Assembly: GCA_026874595.1 (NCBI GenBank)
Contig: CM049306.1
Location: 13,725,019-13,789,018 of the forward strand
Direction of reading: 5' to 3'
Source: Sipunculus nudus
Lineage: Eukaryota; Annelida; Sipuncula; Golfingiida; Sipunculidae
DNA: 64,000 nt
Shown piece by piece: positions 16,085 to 64,000 of this stretch. Within the stretch, counting starts at the first letter, position 1. Each line of letters opens with the position of its first letter. The notes beneath the pieces were generated by a model. It saw nothing but the letters and a program-made list of their open reading frames with translations. It had not been told where the DNA came from and ran no database searches. The translations under genes and the position numbers were made by a program.

Positions 16085-17437
16085 ACCGACCATGGTTTCT
16101 GCCATCTATCAACTTGAGAAACTATTTTTCACCAAATATGGGGGCCAATATTTTGAATCTCTCTCGAGAAAAGAGCATTAATTCATTTTATGTAAATGGG
16201 AAGGTAGGTGGCACCATCTGTCTGGTTCACAAGAAAATTTTTGAAGATGGATTGATATGCGAAATTTCAGACCAATACCTTAAACCACTCCAGAGATACG
16301 AGCAATTTTTACCCAAAGAACATGTAAAGATGGACGCCACGCCAAAATGATTGCAGATGGTGCCACAAGTCTTGAGTACAAGATGGAGAAGTCCAAGATC
16401 TATGGATATGCACAATTTCAGGCCGATAGGGCAAATCACTCATCAGAAAAGAGCATTTAATTTACTCTACAAAAACGGGAAGGTAGGTGGTGCCACCTCT
16501 CTGATTGCGAGAAAACTTTCCAAGATGGATGTACATGCCAAATTTCAGACCTATACCTTGAACCACTCCTGAGATATGAGCAATTTCAACCAAAAGCAAA
16601 CGTATGGATGGATGCCACACAATTTCAATTGTATATAGCGCCTCCAGCTTTGAATCAAGATGGAGGTATCCAAGATTAATGGACAGATTGGGCTGAAATT
16701 GTGCATGTCCATTGGTTTAAGACTTTAATGCTCACAGTACTGTCAAGTGGCAATGATGGGTAATTAAAAGGTCTGAAAACAAGAAAAGGAGAGAATGTGG
16801 CGCCACCTGTCTTCCACAGAAGACAATGCTATCCATGATCTTCGGTCAATTTGATTTTTGGACCAATCCATGCATCCCTTATTGAGATATTTATGATTTT
16901 GTGAGTTTTTTTACCATATATGGCAATATTCATGGTCAAGGCCAAGTTCATAGGAAAGGTCATGACCCCTATTTCACTATACATCATCCCCTAACCCATG
17001 TCTATGTATATGCATAATATGAAAGAAATCTGGCCATTAGTTTCTGACTTAAAATGCTCACAGTACTGTTAAGTGGCAATGATGGGAGTATTAAACGGCA
17101 TGAAAACCAGAAAAGGAAAACAGGTGGCTCCATCAGTTTCCGGTAAATTACAACACTATCCAAGATCTTTGGTCAAGTCGATTTTTGGATCAGTCCATGC
17201 CAGATTTCTTGAGATATTACAGAATTTGAGTGATTTCCCTCAAAATGGACTTATTCAAGGTCAAGGTCACTCTTCTAGTAAAGGTCATGACCCCATTTTA
17301 AATAGGCTTCATCCTCTCAGCCATATATATCTATGAACAATATCAATTTTGGCAAAGATCCATAAAATATTTTTATTGAGTTCTCGCATCCAAACAAAAT
17401 CTCTGCGGCGGGGGCGGGCGACTTTGTCTGGGGATAC
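16085..17437 (-). mobile_element. Diverged relative of Helitrons A/B (element D)
   Basis: It contains several degenerate units of ~285 bp with GGTGGCACCATC or GGTGGTGCCACC at about 16205, 16360 and 16484, and the phrases 'gagatatgagcaattt' and 'aaatttcagacc' that echo the A/B units. It stops at GGCGGG..GGGGATAC (about 17406-17437), which resembles the CGGCGG..GCGGATAC end of A/B. The other end is too diverged to place firmly. It is older than A and B by sequence decay. Confidence 0.45.
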
Positions 17438-17471
17438 AATGATTTGGCCATTACAGATTTTTTTAAGAATA

Positions 17472-18262
17472 GGTCCATGCCCTGTTGGTAGCACTGTCTA
17501 TAGAAGATGTCCATGCCATGTTGGTGCCACTTTCTACAGAAGACATCCATGCCATGTTGGTGGCACTGTCTATAGAAGACATCCATGCCCTGTTTGTAGC
17601 ACTTGTCTATAGAAGGCGTCCATGACATGTTGGTGCCACTGTCTATAGAAGAAGCCCATGCACTGTTATTGGCACTGTCAATAGAAGACATCCATTCCCT
17701 GTTGGTAGCACTGTCTATAGATGATTTCAATGCCATGTTGGTGCCAATTTCTATAGAAGACATCCATGCACTGTTATTGGCACTGTCTATAGAAGACATC
17801 CATGCTCTGTTTTTAACACTGTCTATAGAAGGCATCTATGACATGTTGATGCCACTGTCTATAGAATACATCTATGAACTGTTGGTGACACTGTCTACAG
17901 GAGAAGTCCATGCCATGTTGGTGACACTGTCTATAGAAGACATCCATGCCATGTTGGTGACACTGTCTATAGAAGATGTCAATGCCCTGTTGGTGACACT
18001 GTCTATAGAAGATGTCAATGCCATGTTTGTGCCAATTTCTATAGAAGACATCCATGCACTGTTATTGGCACTGTCTATATAAGACGTTAATGCCATGTGA
18101 TTTGCACTGTCTACAGAAGATGTCCATGCCATGTTGGTGCCACTGTCTAATAAAGGCGTCCATAACATGTTGGTACCACTGTCAATAGGAGACTTCCATG
18201 CCATGCTGTAGCCACTGTCTATAGAAGACATCCATACAATGTTGGTAGCACTGTCTACAAGA
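17472..18262. repeat. 36-bp minisatellite, about 22 units
   Basis: The units follow the pattern CACTGTCTATAGAAGACATC plus a 16-base remainder (CATGCCATGTTGGTGG-like), 36 bases per unit. Unit differences are scattered substitutions plus one inserted base near 17604. Units starting about 17709 and 17997 share the same variant pair, suggesting an 8-unit (288-bp) higher-order block. Because 36 is a multiple of three and the unit lacks stops in some frames, long repetitive frames are open on both strands (plus 17603-18082; minus 17835-17317 and 18231-17872). I regard these as by-products. Confidence 0.85.
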
Positions 18263-34925: not shown

Positions 34926-35145
34926 TGTCGTGTTCGTCAGACACGCAAACAATAAAGAATGGAACACCAGTTTAACAGAAACAGAAGAATGTATTCGCTC
35001 AAGGAACATGGCGATCCCACATAAATATTCATGAGTCCCGGGTGTCCCGGTCTCAGCGATTACCGCGTACATTTTGACATGGAATATTCAGGGCTATGCT
35101 TATTACTGAATTACTATAAAATAAATTATGAGAACTATCTCCACA
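34926..35145 (-). repeat. 3' LTR (220 bp)
   Basis: It has TG..CA termini in minus orientation. It differs from the other LTR at two positions (ATATTC versus ATCTTC; GTGTCC versus GTCTCC), about 99% identity. Confidence 0.93.
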
Positions 35146-35156
35146 CCTCCCTTCCT
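35146..35156 (-). other. Polypurine tract
   Basis: On the minus strand AGGAAGGGAGG lies directly before the 3' LTR. This is the expected primer for plus-strand DNA synthesis. Confidence 0.85.
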
Positions 35157-35525
35157 GAGTACTTAACTGGTAAATACAATTACTCAAAAGGAAATAGGTA
35201 AGTTAAATCCCTCTTATGAATCTGGTATCAGAATATCTCAAAATGATAAAAGGAATTGGACCCGTCCAAGACTTATGTATGGTTATTCATACCTTAGTAG
35301 TCATATGAACATCTCAAAACAACGTGATTACGGAACAACATAATCGTTCAAGTACTCAAGTCTCTTTCTGAGTCTCTTTGACACTCTGGGTTCCGTTGCC
35401 ACAAAGTCTGGTACATCTCGATCAGACTCGGCTTCCTGTGCTTGCTCGGGACCCTCATGTTCAGGATCCTGCTGTGAGAGATGTCTGCGATTTCGGCGAA
35501 GTAACCCGGAATCAGTTTCAACAAT

Positions 35526-37025
35526 TTACGATCTTGGGGTATCTGCTGGTTTCTGTACTGTACCTTCACCTACCCCTTTTACCCACACGTGATCTCCCAT
35601 GGCTAGATCACCGAGAGATTTTGTGCGACGACGCTTATTGAAGTTATCTGCTTGCTTTGCACGGGCAGTTTCTTCACTTGCTCTCAGTTCACGAATATTT
35701 ACGCACTTTGGCTCTAGTAGTGAGGGTAAAGTCGGAACTGGGGTGCGAATTTGGCGACTACCTAGGAGTTGGCTAGGCGAGTATCCATTGGCCAGTCGAG
35801 TAGCACGATATGCCTGGATACCAAGCCACGGATCTTTGGATTTTTTCAGTATAGCTTTGGCAGTTTGCACGGCACGTTCACTCTCACCGTTGCTCTGAGG
35901 ATACCTCGGGCTGGATGTGATATGTGCAAAACTCCAAGCTGTAGCAAACCCCTGAAACTCCGCACAAGCGTACTGCGGCCCATTATCTGAATAAACCTGC
36001 TCTGGGCTCCCATGACAAGCAAAGAACTGTTTCAGTTTCTCTATCATATGTTTAGCTGTTGTCTGCGTTAACACAGCTATCTCGAAAAATCTGGAGTAGT
36101 AATCAACAGCGATCACATAGTGCTTTCCTTTCAGTTCAAATAAATCTGTCCCAACGACTTGCCACGGTCGGTCAGGAAATCTGCTAGTCATCAGTGGCTC
36201 CGGTCTGTTTACTCTCTCCGGCGTACATAACTTGCACATGAACACTTTATCATATAACTGCCGACTCAGTCCTGGCCACCAGACTGAGGTAAGAGCTCTG
36301 TCTCTACACTTTGCAATTCCCAAATGTCCTTCATGCAGTTTATCCAAAATTTCTAATCTCAAAACTGCTGGAATCACAATACGATTGTCCTTCAGTAGCA
36401 AACCATCAATGACTGAGAATTCAGTTTTGTAGGCCCAATACGGTATCAGTGACTCAGACAAATTTGCTCTAGCTGGCCATCCACTATCCACATATTTCAT
36501 CAACTGAGCACAAATTTCATCATCTGTTTGTAGAGTTTTGATCTGCGCGAGGCGATTTTCTGTAACCGGTAGACTGTCCATAATCAAGCTCACATAGGCT
36601 TCTGTAGCATGTTCCAATTCTGCACGGACGTCAACACTTGTAATTGGCTTTCTCGATAACGTGTCAGCTGTGACCAGAGTTTTACCTGGCACATGTGAAA
36701 TTGTGTAACTGTATCGCATCAGTCGCATCCGGAAGCGTTGGATACGCGGTGTCATCTCTGTTAAATCCTTAGTACTGAGTAAAGGCACCAGAGGTTTATG
36801 ATCAGTCTCTATATGGAATGTCGGCAACCCAAACAGGAAGTCATGAAAACGCTCACAAGCCCATGTGACGGCTAAGGCTTCCTTTTCAATCTGCGCGTAA
36901 CGTTTTTCGGCATCACTAAGCGAACGCGAGGCATATGCGATAGGCTTCATGGACCCATCCGTTTGTTTCTTCGACAAATGGGCTCCCAATCCATACGAAG
37001 ACGCATGCGGAGAGTACGGTATCAC
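35526..37025 (-). pseudogene. pol: pol segment: RNase H and integrase
   Basis: The open frame begins out of phase with RT; true RNase H sequence starts at ASSYGLGAHLS, just after the small deletion. Numbering the 499-residue frame: RNase H has E49, TDHKPL (D75) and ADTLSR (D121). Integrase has the HHCC zinc site H231, H234, C264, C267 and the catalytic triad D294, D347, E383 with the classical D-35-E spacing. TAA at 35528-35526 cuts off the end of the domain, whose continuation in the same frame (LLRRNRRHL, then an acidic and basic tail) runs to 35328. No chromodomain is evident. Confidence 0.9.
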
Positions 37026-38628
37026 GTGTGGGACTGTAGAATGCCAATGTCGGCGAACTTGTCAAGATTTGTTTCACCCGCTGAAACGCCGATTCCTGTA
37101 CCGAAGTCCAAATCCACTCATTTCGCGTACTTAAGAGATCTCGTAGTGGTTGTGTCACAGAGGCCAGATCTGGCAGGAACTTGCTTTGGTGGTTAACTAT
37201 GCCAAGGAAACGCCGAAGTTCCGGTACGTTCTGTGGTGCTTCCATATCGACTACAGCCTGGACCTTCTGTGGATCAGGATGTATTCCATCACTATCGACT
37301 AACTGACCCAAGAAGCGGATCCCATTCTGCGAAAACTGACACATTCGGAGATTGAGCGTAACGCGATTCTCTTTGAGACGTTGTAACACTGCCCCGAGAC
37401 GCCGATCGTGTTCATTCTGAGTAGCTCCATATACTACGATATCATCAATGAGGCACACTACGCATTCTAACCCGTTGAGGATTTCCGTAACGCGACGTGT
37501 AAAATGTTCTGGGGCGGAAGAGATTCCGTAAGGCAAGCGCAAATACATGTATCGCCCGAACGGTGTTATAAATGTGGTCATCAAAGATGATTCATGATCG
37601 AGTTTCAGTTGCCAGAACCCGGAATTGGCATCGAGCTTCGTAAAATATTTCGAATCTTTGATTTGTCCGAGAACTTGCTCAACGGTAGTTAGCATGTATC
37701 GCTCGCGAACTACGCTGTTGTTTAGCTTTGTCAAGTCCGCACAAATACGCAATTCACCACTTTCCTTGGGTACAACTACCATTGGCGAACACCAGTCAGT
37801 TGCACTAGTCACTGGAGTAATGACATTTGAATCTTGCATTCGATCGAGTTCTGCTTTTACGCGATCCATCAGCGGTAACGGAATACGTCTCGGAACATTC
37901 AGAGAATACGGCTTTGCGTCTGGCTGAAGTTTGATACTGTATTCACCCGAAACTTCCCCCAGGCCATCAAATAGTTCAGGGAATTTCGCTTTGTATTTAG
38001 TCTTATCATCTGATGAGCTAGTATCACTATCACTGACTTCGCCAACTCTGGTGAGTACTTTGAGTGCACAAATTGCTGGTCGGCCAAGCAGCGGTTGACT
38101 AGTACCCTTTAAGATGTATACATCTTGTGTGGTTGTGGCAGTGTCTGTTTTTAGCGTAGTATTCACTTTACCTACCACTGGTAACTTTATATTGTCTGGT
38201 CCATACAATACCCTGTCTGTATGGAGCATTTGTCCATGTACTTTCTCTTGGTACAGTTTCTCGGGTATAACTGATACATCAGCACCTGTATCAATTTTAA
38301 ATATCACTGGAAAGTCCCCCATATGTACCTTAACACCCCACGCTGTCTGGTCATCTGTGTAGACTTCACCCAAAAAGGGATCAGCTGGTGCTGTTTCAAT
38401 TTCACCGACGCTCTTACCAGATGTGGCTGCTCTACATGCACGAGCATAATGTCCCCTTTTTGAACATTTCTGACAAGAAACATCCCTTGCAGGACATTCT
38501 GATCTTGGATGCCAAGGTGTTTTAGCACACCTACCACATTTTGATTTGTTTGGACTGTTTTGACTGTATCTGGGTGGTGGCTTTTGTTGGTGGGGTGGTT
38601 TTGGTGCTGGGTTTCCCTGCGATCGAAA
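36916..38628 (-). pseudogene. pol: pol segment: nucleocapsid knuckles, protease and reverse transcriptase
   Basis: The frame is open from just after the gag TAG. First come two zinc knuckles, an atypical CX2CX5HX4C and a canonical CX2CX4HX4C. Numbering from the ATG at 38373, protease has DTGAD at residues 28-32 and LLGRPA at 95-100. RT spans about 150-380, with LDANSGFWQLKLD (D248), LPYGISSAPEHF and the catalytic IDD (D310, D311). After SPTRDTVLSA (about 37010) the frame runs out of phase and ends at 36916 with unrelated residues. Role: aspartic protease cleaves the polyprotein; RT copies element RNA in virus-like particles. Confidence 0.9.
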
Positions 38629-39220
38629 CTACGGCCTCTGGCGGTAGGTCTTGACGGCATCAACATTTAAGTTTTGGTTTTGACTCTGCCTGACTATCGG
38701 CTGCTGTTGCATAACGCTTTCATTAAGGCGAGCCTGTGCCACTGCACTCTCTAATGTTAACCTAGAATCTAACTGTAGTTTCTTTGACAAGATGGGGTCT
38801 TTGACACCTACAACAACACGGTCCCGTATCATCTCATCCCGCAATGTACCAAAGTCACAGTGGTCAGCCAAGCTATATAGCGCCGTGATGAAATCATCCA
38901 CGGATTCACCATCATTTTGTACCCGGACACTAAACTTGCTGCGCTCAAACACGTGATTTCGTTTGCCAGTAAAATAAGTTTGAAATTCATCATGCACTTT
39001 CTGATATATTTTCTTATCCAGGGCTGATAGCGTAAATGTGTTCATGATATCATCTGCTTTATCGCCCATTTGATAGATGAACGTATTTACCTGTTCCTCG
39101 TCTGTTTTTTTCTGCGAGCCCGCTTGCTTTCCGAAATCTCTCGAATCGTCGGCTCCAACTGGGCCATTCGTCCGGAGTAAAGCTGAACGCCGCCGGGGCC
39201 GGTACCTGATACTGTGCCAT
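38629..39220 (-). pseudogene. gag: gag segment: matrix/capsid-like region
   Basis: The segment holds the N-terminal region (39220 to about 39112) and, after the one-base shift in the A run, a frame whose first ATG is at 39069 (MGDKADDIMN), running to TAG at 38631-38629. It has the retrotransposon capsid features VRVQNDGESVDDFITALY and RDEMIRDRVVVGV, typical of Mag-type gag. The original start was probably the ATG at 39220, because 39069 would drop the first ~50 residues. The TAG separates the capsid from the zinc knuckles, which follow in the same frame. Confidence 0.85.
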
Positions 39221-39252
39221 CTTCAGTTCCAAAGCGTGGATATCTAGTTTAT

Positions 39253-39268
39253 CTCACTTCTGACACCA
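39253..39268 (-). other. Primer-binding site, tRNA-Leu
   Basis: Directly inside the 5' LTR the minus strand reads TGGTGTCAGAAGTGAG. This is complementary to the 3' end of animal tRNA-Leu including CCA, with one mismatch. Steamer and related Mag-clade elements also use tRNA-Leu (established knowledge). Confidence 0.8.
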
Positions 39269-39488
39269 TGTCGTGTTCGTCAGACACGCAAACAATAAAG
39301 AATGGAACACCAGTTTAACAGAAACAGAAGAATGTATTCGCTCAAGGAACATGGCGATCCCACATAAATCTTCATGAGTCCCGGGTCTCCCGGTCTCAGC
39401 GATTACCGCGTACATTTTGACATGGAATATTCAGGGCTATGCTTATTACTGAATTACTATAAAATAAATTATGAGAACTATCTCCACA
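39269..39488 (-). repeat. 5' LTR (220 bp)
   Basis: Same length and TG..CA ends as the LTR at 34926-35145. It should contain the promoter for the minus-strand transcript. Confidence 0.93.
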
Positions 39489-61414: not shown

Positions 61415-62111
61415 ATGGCACTATTTTGGGGACCAGGCAGTAAATCTTGTGCTTGGAATTAAGTTGGATTTCTATGGTGAATGAGCCTGAAACCTAACAG
61501 CTAATCAGAGGAAGGACTTTTAAAACTGGCTTCTCCCTGTGTCCTTGAACCTAAAGCAACATGTCATGTTTGGTTAGAAACCTGCGAGCATCGCTTCTTA
61601 ACTTTGCACCTGGATTATATGTTTAATTTTCTTATTTGAGCAAGAAAACAAGTAAGGAGTCGTAGTTTAGGGTATGTTAGCTAGATTATTTTTGGTAATT
61701 TGGCCAAAGGAGGGACATTTAGTAATATCAGACAGGGCACCACAAGAATGCATGCAGTGCTCTCCGTCTCTGTATTATAGAGACGGACACTCTGTCTAGG
61801 CGCATACCAGCCCAGCAAGGATGTCCAGAGCAGATGTTGTTACATTTGATTTGATTGACAGCAAACCAGCTCGACATCCCGCTTATATGGGCACAGTCAC
61901 TAGCCCATAGCTTCCTTGCTCTCTCCTTAGTTACTTTACGCCTCTTTTTCCCTCCGCTGAGAGAACCCTAGAAAGAGGTATTTGAAAACTGGAGACATTC
62001 CAGTTGACAATAAAACAATAATATCTTGGCGAAAAATGTGTCAAATTTTAGAATGCAAACATATTTGTATCATATTGTAACCAGACATGAGGTGATTATT
62101 TTATAAATGTA
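61415..62111. other. Anonymous sequence
   Basis: No gene or repeat family was recognised. ATGTA at 62107-62111 may be a target duplication of the element that follows. Confidence 0.4.
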
Positions 62112-62932
62112 TGTCACACCACACACGCAGCGGACATATATTCCTGAGTTCTTTCACACTGAAAAGTCCAAAATACCACTCGTTGTCTGAACTGAAGAAC
62201 ACGGTTTATTCCGGTGACATCCAACAATTGGCCACCGTCGTCGTTGACTGACTCCAATCTCACAATAACAACTTCTTCAACAAGTACCAATCACGTATAT
62301 CTTCTGACGCCCTGATCGGCTACAACTATCTATATTCTCTCCAGGACTAATACTGTCCTCGCGGAATTTATAACACACCCCGCTCGGTGTTCAACTAATC
62401 CGTCGTTGACATAAAACGACCTGTCACCCGTTGACGGTAACTTCCAAATTCATTCACTTCTCTTCTCTTTCCACCGGCCTTGACACCGCCCTGTTTATAC
62501 CTGGGTAACCGAAACTTCTAGAAGTCTCTAGAATAATCAAGTCGTTTCTTGTCAAGACTAGCACCTACGGGATTTTCTAGAATTTACCTATTGGAAATTA
62601 CACATTGCCTGAATTCTCTAGAACCTTCTGTCACCTAATTATAATAAATCATGGTACAGTAAGTCCATTTACTAACATAATATACAATATACTATGAGAT
62701 AATCCACCAGCGTCGTCGGCACAGATGTAAACAAACAGGATGACAACAACAGCTGACAACTTCACCAAATATTATTAACTCCGTCTCTCCAACTACACTT
62801 TATGATCTGACATTCCAATTTAATATTAACTGGCCTGCTAATGCACCGCAGAAATTATGTTTTCCCTAACTTATTTCATTATTTTATGAAATTCCATTTG
62901 ACATACACTAGGCAGCTTGCACATTTGTGTCA
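62112..62932 (-). mobile_element. Possible solo LTR, minus orientation
   Basis: The minus-strand sequence ends in GTGTGGTGTGACA at 62112. An AATAAA (62210-62205) lies about 95 bases before that end, and a TATA box plus upstream heat-shock elements lie further up, the order expected for U3-R-U5. A candidate far end is TGACAC at 62932, with ATGTA on both outer sides (62107-62111, 62933-62937). That boundary lies next to low-complexity TAATCGATTAC-like sequence and could be a coincidence. No internal region or second LTR is present. Confidence 0.4.
62494..62628 (-). promoter_or_regulatory. TATA box with three upstream heat-shock-element clusters
   Basis: TATAAA on the minus strand occupies 62499-62494. 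Upstream are alternating GAA/TTC pentamers at strict 5-base spacing. At 62511-62533 five units occur (GAA, TTC, GAA, CTC, GAA), one imperfect. At 62575-62582 there is TTCTAGAA. At 62611-62628 four units occur (GAA, CTC, GAA, TTC), one imperfect. Three or more nGAAn units in alternating orientation are the binding site of heat shock factor HSF1 (established knowledge). HSEs just upstream of a TATA box imply a stress-inducible minus-strand promoter; activity is inferred, not shown. Confidence 0.65.
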
Positions 62933-64000
62933 ATGTAATCAATTTCAATTACAATTACATTGCTGAAAAAATAAATGTAATCGATTACGATTACTTAAAA
63001 AAAATAATCATGATTGCAATCATGATTACAAACCTGAATTTTGTCAATAATGTGAAGAGACAACACAAGATTCACACACTGTAAACTTTATTCATGTCAA
63101 ATTATTAATATACCCAGACCACAAAATGAACAGTGATCCTGCCAAAGACGAAGTTGAAAATTGTATAAAAGTGTGCATAAAAATAAATCAAGTAATGTGA
63201 GAAAAAAATATAGATCAATCTGTTACAAAAAGCAACAGTTTTTTATGTCCATGATGTACTGTCAAATTGCATTGGGAAAGATCTTGGCAATCACAAATGC
63301 TTATTGCACTTTATAAACAGCAGTCTCTCAAACTGAGCATCTGAGCAACTGACTTGGCAGCTGCCTTAACTGCTACTAATCTGTATGACAGTATCAGTAT
63401 AGCATTCACTATGTTCAAAATGCATCTGATTCACCTGTCAAATGTCACAAATATTTATAGTGAATTTTAAGTCAACTCTGATAAACTGTTCAAAGTCACC
63501 TCAGGTGGCTCTGCTTTATGCAGAGGTCCAATGCTTACCTGTGTTGATTTGCTCATATACTAATGAGGGGAATGCTTAGCTGTGTTGACTTATACTAGTG
63601 GTGGGAGTCGGTTCCTTTTTCATAATCGATTATCGGTTTGGACAAACCGATGGATGATCGATTATTAATCGGTTCAGACAAAAATAAAGAAATGTGCAAT
63701 TATCTGTGAAACTGTACTCTCTTAACCCAGCCCGCATGTCTTAGTAATTCTACCTAACGAAAAAAAGTTTTTGCCTTTTTTATATTTTCCTTTTATCACT
63801 AAGATATGCTATTCAAAGTTTCATTTTAATTAATTATAGTAATCAAGAATTAAACCACAGTCCAGGACATCTACTTGCTGGCCCTCATGAATACTCCCGC
63901 GTATCATTTTAACTTCACCACCAGCTAGGACTATCATTTTATAACAATTATGATGACTGCTGACATGCATTCTGGTTTCACAGGACTGCCAGAAAAATTA
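62933..64000. other. Anonymous sequence with TAATCGATTA-type repeats
   Basis: 62933-63030 has alternating TAATCGATTAC/CAATCATGATTAC words, and 63596-63690 has GTGGTGGGAGTCGGTTCC followed by ATCGATTATCGG repeats. Both look like ends of non-autonomous DNA transposons, possibly hAT, but no matching end or target duplication can be shown within the window. No gene was supported. Confidence 0.35.

Follow-up and report, generated by a model that had tools for sequence, protein, structure and literature searches.

DIRS-1 of Dictyostelium carries heat-shock elements (HSEs) in its terminal repeat, and heat-responsive LTRs are already known from other systems. In the passages cited, nGAAn clusters (nTTCnnGAAn) in the LTR of ONSEN (ATCOPIA78) of Arabidopsis recruit host heat-shock factors (PMC3907296), and the strong ONSEN element among the Brassicaceae COPIA families is described as having arisen by duplication of a proto-element (PMC5059998). 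Drosophila copia is there called the closest case; its heat-raised expression is tied to heat-shock consensus sequences, and its promoter is without the at least three further nGAAn copies required for high-affinity binding (PMC3907296). Helitrons of Caenorhabditis, in the cited part of the source, bear many HSEs (PMC6927752). By these passages, the well-documented strong cases of heat-driven LTRs come from plants; of the animal cases, copia is weaker and the Helitrons are a different type of element.

We describe here an HSE-bearing solo LTR in the window, by which we mean the whole 64-kb stretch of DNA analysed. Like ONSEN, it is an LTR with clusters of GAA units, and a 13-base stretch of array A recurs in array C with a single base changed, to be compared with the ONSEN duplication; unlike ONSEN, a plant Ty1/copia element whose case is experimentally proven, it belongs to a family of Gmr1-type Ty3/gypsy structure, has 11 units and is known from sequence alone. 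With Drosophila copia it has in common that it is an animal LTR element with the heat-shock consensus, and differs in its 11 units. Caenorhabditis Helitrons are likewise an animal transposon type rich in HSEs, but they are DNA transposons, whereas here the HSEs stand in the TATA promoter of a retroelement. DIRS-1 also has a terminal repeat with HSEs; unlike DIRS, our family has an rve integrase and a 5-bp target-site duplication (TSD). Finally, it resembles Gmr1-type elements in having the integrase upstream of the reverse transcriptase (RT) and a SCAN-type gag. Taken together, we judge it likely that this solo LTR of a Gmr1-type Ty3/gypsy family has a U3 promoter built like that of a heat-shock gene, the response to heat being predicted from this architecture. 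A Gmr1-type version with 11 HSE units looks new: the cited parts of PMC8220671, PMC8556966 and PMC3424704 make no mention of HSEs in a Gmr1 LTR, those of PMC5405107 (abalone), PMC10294476 and PMC2774666 hold nothing decisive, and an HSE-bearing LTR in a mollusc or a Gmr1 element did not appear among the literature matches listed, which are titles and abstract openings with most subscription papers outside them.

The solo LTR and its promoter

The features are as follows; the HSE arrays and the polyadenylation signal are read from the letters themselves, and the counts refer to 40 scored genome copies.

62107..62111, no strand: TSD copy 1, ATGTA, the 3' flank in LTR sense, same as 62933-62937
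62112..62932, minus strand: solo LTR, 821 bp, delimited by the TSD and by ends common to the 40 scored copies
62205..62210, minus strand: AATAAA polyadenylation signal
62463..62469, minus strand: predicted transcription start, 25-30 bases beyond the TATA box and placed from its position
62492..62499, minus strand: TATA box, TATAAACA in the window copy, TATAAATA in 38/40 copies
62511..62533, minus strand: HSE array A, five units, closest to the TATA box; units unchanged in 36/40 LTRs
62575..62582, minus strand: HSE array B, two units, TTC TA GAA; units unchanged in 36/40 LTRs
62611..62628, minus strand: HSE array C, four units, distal; units unchanged in 38/40 LTRs
62933..62937, no strand: TSD copy 2, ATGTA, the 5' flank in LTR sense, same as 62107-62111

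The stretch 62112-62932 is a solo LTR, as its target-site duplication, its termini, its missing interior and its dispersed copies show. Read in LTR sense from 62932 to 62112, it starts with TGACAC and ends with GTGACA, giving TG...CA termini; the 5-bp duplication ATGTA flanks it, and the interior region is absent, as in solo LTRs generally. The first-pass annotation had called it a probable solo LTR, with a TG..ACA end and an AATAAA, over exactly this span, and each of these points stands: the GTGACA terminus and the minus-strand AATAAA are present, the genome holds dispersed copies, and 37/40 scored copies match LTR positions 1-821 while the other three match 1-819, their final two bases being TA, not CA. 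The copy is probably the remnant of recombination between two LTRs; BLAST gave no second match to it within the window. For the interval from 40 to 64 kb, the list of open reading frames has no ORF of at least 120 aa (ATG, GTG or TTG start), so that this copy is without an evident target, and no gene was recognised in the path of its promoter, judged from that ORF list alone. By sequence it clusters (support 0.973) with the LTRs of the short elements described below and with three further solo or single LTRs. At 62940-63031 and 63619-63672 the LTR is adjoined by AT-rich palindromes that contain TAATCGATTA; these resemble the ends of hAT-type MITEs, so the LTR may have inserted beside a MITE.

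Turning to the promoter, the 11 HSE units alternate between GAA and TTC at 5-base spacing, nine of them perfect and two of GAG type. Array A reads GAA ac TTC ta GAA gt CTC ta GAA on the plus strand (GAAACTTCTAGAAGTCTCTAGAA), with the fourth unit, CTC, being of GAG type, and TTC TA GAG AC TTC TA GAA GT TTC in LTR sense. Array B is TTCTAGAA on the plus strand. Array C reads GAA tt CTC ta GAA cc TTC (GAATTCTCTAGAACCTTC), again with one GAG-type unit, and GAA GG TTC TA GAG AA TTC in LTR sense. The initial count of five, two and four units is correct provided that the two GAG-type units are counted, and the arrays do stand directly upstream of a minus-strand TATAAA, as had been noticed: the TATAAA occupies 62494-62499, and 11 bases separate it from array A. 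Two LTRs among the 40 deviate from TATAAATA, and the window copy, with one base flanking TATA changed, is one of them. The predicted start region falls in a purine-rich stretch that is the most variable of the LTR in the variability profile of the 40 copies; from it, R would extend from about 62468 to about 62185 and U5 from there to 62112.

The window's total of three-unit HSE matches is ordinary, since 25 were observed (at most one mismatch) against 21.05 expected from shuffles. Their placement is what stands out: seven of the 25 fall in 62511-62628, and the densest 120 bp holds seven HSE-like sites versus one to three in all 150 first-order simulated windows. An HSE cluster in U3, near the promoter and across family copies, which is what a heat-responsive LTR should have, is found here.

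Dispersed copies and the Gmr1-type family

From 502 candidates met in a genome search with the 821-base LTR, scoring was limited to the best 40, one of which is the window copy; they were chosen by similarity to that copy, and the others are 92-96% identical to it. Twenty of the 40 are solo LTRs with a 5-bp TSD, 17 directly and three once the TA end is allowed; for L030 and L035, both located in AT repeats, the TSD match is weak. Paired elements, a search for which had been proposed at the outset, do exist: 16 of the remaining LTRs form eight pairs, and four are single LTRs beside a PBS-like or purine stretch. The outer 5-mers are identical in seven of the eight pairs (one of them, TATAT, within AT repeats) and have one mismatch in the eighth, and divergence between paired LTRs is K 0.0024-0.026. 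Furthermore, an R/U5 anchor allowing up to two mismatches has 217 genome matches against 0 for the reversed control. Overall the genome carries more than 200 copies. Those with paired LTRs come in a gag-pol form of about 6.7 kb and a gag-only form of about 3.9 kb.

Of the eight internal regions examined, three measure 5.0-5.1 kb and five 2.2-2.4 kb. In all eight the PBS-like TGGGGGCTCGTCCGG, which we take to be of proline-tRNA type, follows the 5' LTR (with one base different in L046) at an offset of eight bases, or six in L047 and L048, and a purine run near the 3' LTR ends four bases before it. These stretches bear on whether the locus could instead be the promoter of a host heat-shock gene, a reading which the HSE array, the TATA box and the minus-strand start would fit by themselves; the 217 anchor matches, the exact ends, the TSDs and the PBS-like and purine stretches stand against it, as does the ORF-poor interval from 40 to 64 kb, and with dispersed copies sharing exact ends and TSDs we rule it out for practical purposes.

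The one long copy scanned gave the Pfam order SCAN, zf-CCHC, H2C2, rve, RVT_1, RNase H, and a single ORF of one copy carries H2C2 at 640-697, rve at 716-812 and RVT_1 at 1144-1302, which places the integrase before the RT. SCAN (PF02023) was matched in one long and one short copy with E values of 3.2e-10 and 3.1e-10. The short elements (L044-L048) have LTRs in common with the gag-pol element; by BLAST their 2.2-2.4 kb internals match the long ones at both ends only, the middle being unmatched. In the one short copy scanned, the encoded gag combines SCAN and three zinc knuckles, and no pol domain was matched; the short elements are probably carried by the long ones.

Gmr1 itself is known from cod. 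From the domain order and SCAN gag of the scanned copies, the family is classed as Gmr1-type Ty3/gypsy. In the parts of the literature cited, an integrase-before-RT order marks the Gmr1 clade (PMC6238403, PMC8220671), the SCAN domain is derived from a Gmr1-like gag (PMC3424704), and Gmr1 is one of five clades found in several phyla (PMC8556966); an annelid Gmr1-type element, LGF3, is described (PMC8220671), and the table of a 2018 mollusc survey gives 21 gypsy clades, Gmr1 not included (PMC6238403). Were the host a mollusc, as the first-pass annotation took it to be, the family would bring in a clade that this table lacks; a Pfam search for Egg_lysin has no bearing on that assignment, being empty in this genome and in 14 control genomes alike. 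The parallel drawn earlier with ONSEN and DIRS-1 does not extend to the kind of element, which is neither copia nor DIRS. A copia-type RT is Pfam RVT_2, and DIRS elements use a tyrosine recombinase and leave no TSD. Descent from Ty1-copia was rejected on the RVT_1 match, with RVT_2 absent from the 10 families listed in the Pfam scan, and the rve integrase and 5-bp TSD speak against DIRS membership.

The window holds a separate Ty3/gypsy element at 34926-39488 on the minus strand, with 220-bp LTRs 99% alike and the order RT-RNase H-integrase, lying within an array of satellite repeats of about 112 bp. Kinship with it was rejected: its LTRs are a separate repeat pair, its pol order is the usual one, and the window has no further BLAST match to the HSE-bearing LTR.

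Conservation of the heat-shock units

Conservation was examined in three sets of copies. First, among the 40 LTRs scored by similarity, all 11 units are kept in 30, which answers the proposal that intact arrays be counted across copies. Variability averages 0.008 over the 33 unit positions, compared with 0.026 for positions between units and 0.046 beyond the HSE region. Among 20,000 sets of 33 positions drawn at random, a fraction of 0.0008 was equally low, and when the positions were shifted along the LTR, 11 of 821 shifts were equally low, the true placement among them. The 135-bp HSE window ranks 6th of 687 overlapping windows by low variability. Low values (0.018-0.022) mark LTR positions 561-600 and 681-760 too, and the HSEs are thus not the sole conserved part.

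Second, copies were sampled through the anchor, that is, without regard to HSEs. Among 100 exact anchor matches listed, 72 were examined: 52 in the part of the genome spanned by the listing of five-unit HSEs, plus 20 of the 48 others, hand-picked from those not yet read; exact-anchor sampling favours young copies. The strict five-unit array A is present in 54 of the 72 and changed in 11, and seven have no recognisable LTR in the stretch read. The changed arrays comprise six that are one base off, three that are two to three bases off (two of which look like one duplicated copy), one with three units left and one that is lost.

Third, older copies were found by querying with a whole LTR, L078 (71% identical), which had itself been recovered through the HSE pattern. 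The divergence test took in 16 older copies, ten from this query and six from the anchor sample, with the window copy as reference. Left out were L104 (array region missing), L106 (equal to L105 in the stretch shown) and L121 (array poorly matched), together with L057, L059, L078 and L080-L082, which had been found via the HSE pattern. Unit bases differ from the window copy in 33 of 514 cells (6.4%), compared with 38/251 in spacers (15.1%) and 226/1461 at other positions (15.5%); with gaps counted, the values are 8.9%, 16.8% and 17.0%. Fisher p-values for the unit contrasts with spacers and with other positions are 1.7e-4 and 3.5e-8, both too small because the copies are related. Divergence that is lower in units than in spacers matches the direction that binding by heat-shock factor (HSF) predicts. 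In 11 old copies array A keeps all five units once and has one base changed in six, the rest being changed further or shifted, a loss of units that dead copies would also show.

It could be argued that the arrays are common by descent only and bind nothing, or are read by some other factor, such as a STAT-type reader of TTCnnnGAA or a reader of the TCTAGA palindrome. All copies trace back to a small number of founders, TTCTAGAA can equally be read as a simple palindrome, and other LTR parts are conserved nearly as well. On the other hand, changes at unit bases are less than half as frequent as changes in the 2-base spacers of older copies, and L102, L103 and L120, none of them selected by HSE, retain the five units of array A intact despite two, two and four changed spacer bases; moreover, an alternating 5-base period is the code of the HSF trimer and not the spacing of STAT sites. 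We regard descent or another factor as an improbable account of the arrays, and consider binding by heat-shock factor, launching transcription of the element under stress, to be the most likely role that these data point to.

Comparison with relatives suggests that the arrays were gained within this family. No HSE array stands in the 1.6 kb read, from past the RT into the LTR, in each of four families related to it by RT (47-53%), reads that may not span each LTR fully; they contain a single three-unit site (at most one mismatch), in L124, and two-unit sites singly in L123 and L124. The 69% RT relative, L126, lies next to an LTR of the HSE family with its centre missing, as judged by eye.

Predicted heat response and genomic setting

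Most likely, then, the sequence of events would be as follows. Under heat or other protein-damaging stress, the host heat-shock factor would trimerise and bind array A, its affinity increased by arrays B and C; on the minus strand, the TATA box would set the start some 25-30 bases downstream, near 62463-62469. Gag-pol and gag-only elements alike would be transcribed mainly in stress, and the solo LTR in the window would act as a stand-alone heat-inducible minus-strand promoter. Heat, in short, probably switches the element on.

Whether such a switch would still operate depends on the state of the family. The arrays may once have served heat induction in a family that is now silenced or dead, leaving the solo LTR idle; this is compatible with the heat-switch reading, and we think it rather unlikely. 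It would agree with the 20 solo LTRs among the 40 scored, the interrupted reading frames in several internals and the altered TATA of the window copy; silencing by methylation or piRNA is likely in animals. It fits less well with the two gag-pol pairs whose LTRs are 99.6 and 99.8% identical (K 0.0037 and 0.0024), or with the result of a search with an RT piece. There, the best 150 of 7292 candidates were scored, and 29 are 90-100% identical, with 193-201 of the 201 residues aligned, several of them lying within long open reading frames; the others comprise one partial match at 95%, one at 69% and the rest at 53% or less. The near-identical gag-pol LTR pairs and the 29 RT copies at 90% or more together indicate recent activity.

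This search and the listing of five-unit HSEs also met several head-to-tail LTR families with constant spacing, in runs of three to four RT copies (G000), at C5:7.13-7.15M (about 5.9 kb), C16:20.96-20.98M (about 6.3 kb), C17:43.73-43.75M (about 6.3 kb) and C11:48.51-48.52M (about 6.1 kb).

The family also has a large share in the strict five-unit HSEs listed for the genome. TTCnnGArnnTTCnnGAAnnTTC has 211 genome matches and its reversed control 26, a count biased to the LTR in that the strict pattern permits GAG at the second unit, as the LTR does. Among 100 sites listed, 82 are the LTR's array or a near variant (70 the exact LTR 23-mer, 12 near variants) and 18 are others, sorted by eye. BLAST gave an LTR context for 24 of the first 30 listed, and for L080-L082 and C4:53927024; the remaining sites were assigned by the 23-mer alone. 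At L079, a five-unit HSE outside the LTR, no hsp gene was recognised by eye among its ORFs. Two non-LTR-type five-unit HSEs at C3:63747067 and C3:63834749 (G000), 88 kb apart and both with TTCTAGAATTTTC, are possibly another repeat or a duplicated promoter. Among the far commoner three-unit HSEs, we expect the LTR to be a minority.

A bolder extension, which we put forward tentatively and think doubtful as a whole, is that one Gmr1-type LTR family could be the genome's main holder of long high-affinity HSF sites, that heat shock might fire about 200 dispersed TATA promoters, that some solo LTRs may serve as host stress switches or jointly as an HSF sink, and that the gag-only element, an offshoot of the family, would share the heat switch. 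With recent activity, 11 HSE units and units that diverge less than their spacers, the family makes it testable whether warming mobilises a transposon in an animal; the spread of heat-inducible promoters by a transposon in an animal becomes testable as well.

Elsewhere in the window, the repeats at 17317-18082 leave both strands open and encode SIDSAN- and SIEDIHA-like motifs over and over, with only weak Pfam matches, below the cut-off; the region is probably a tandem minisatellite rather than a gene.
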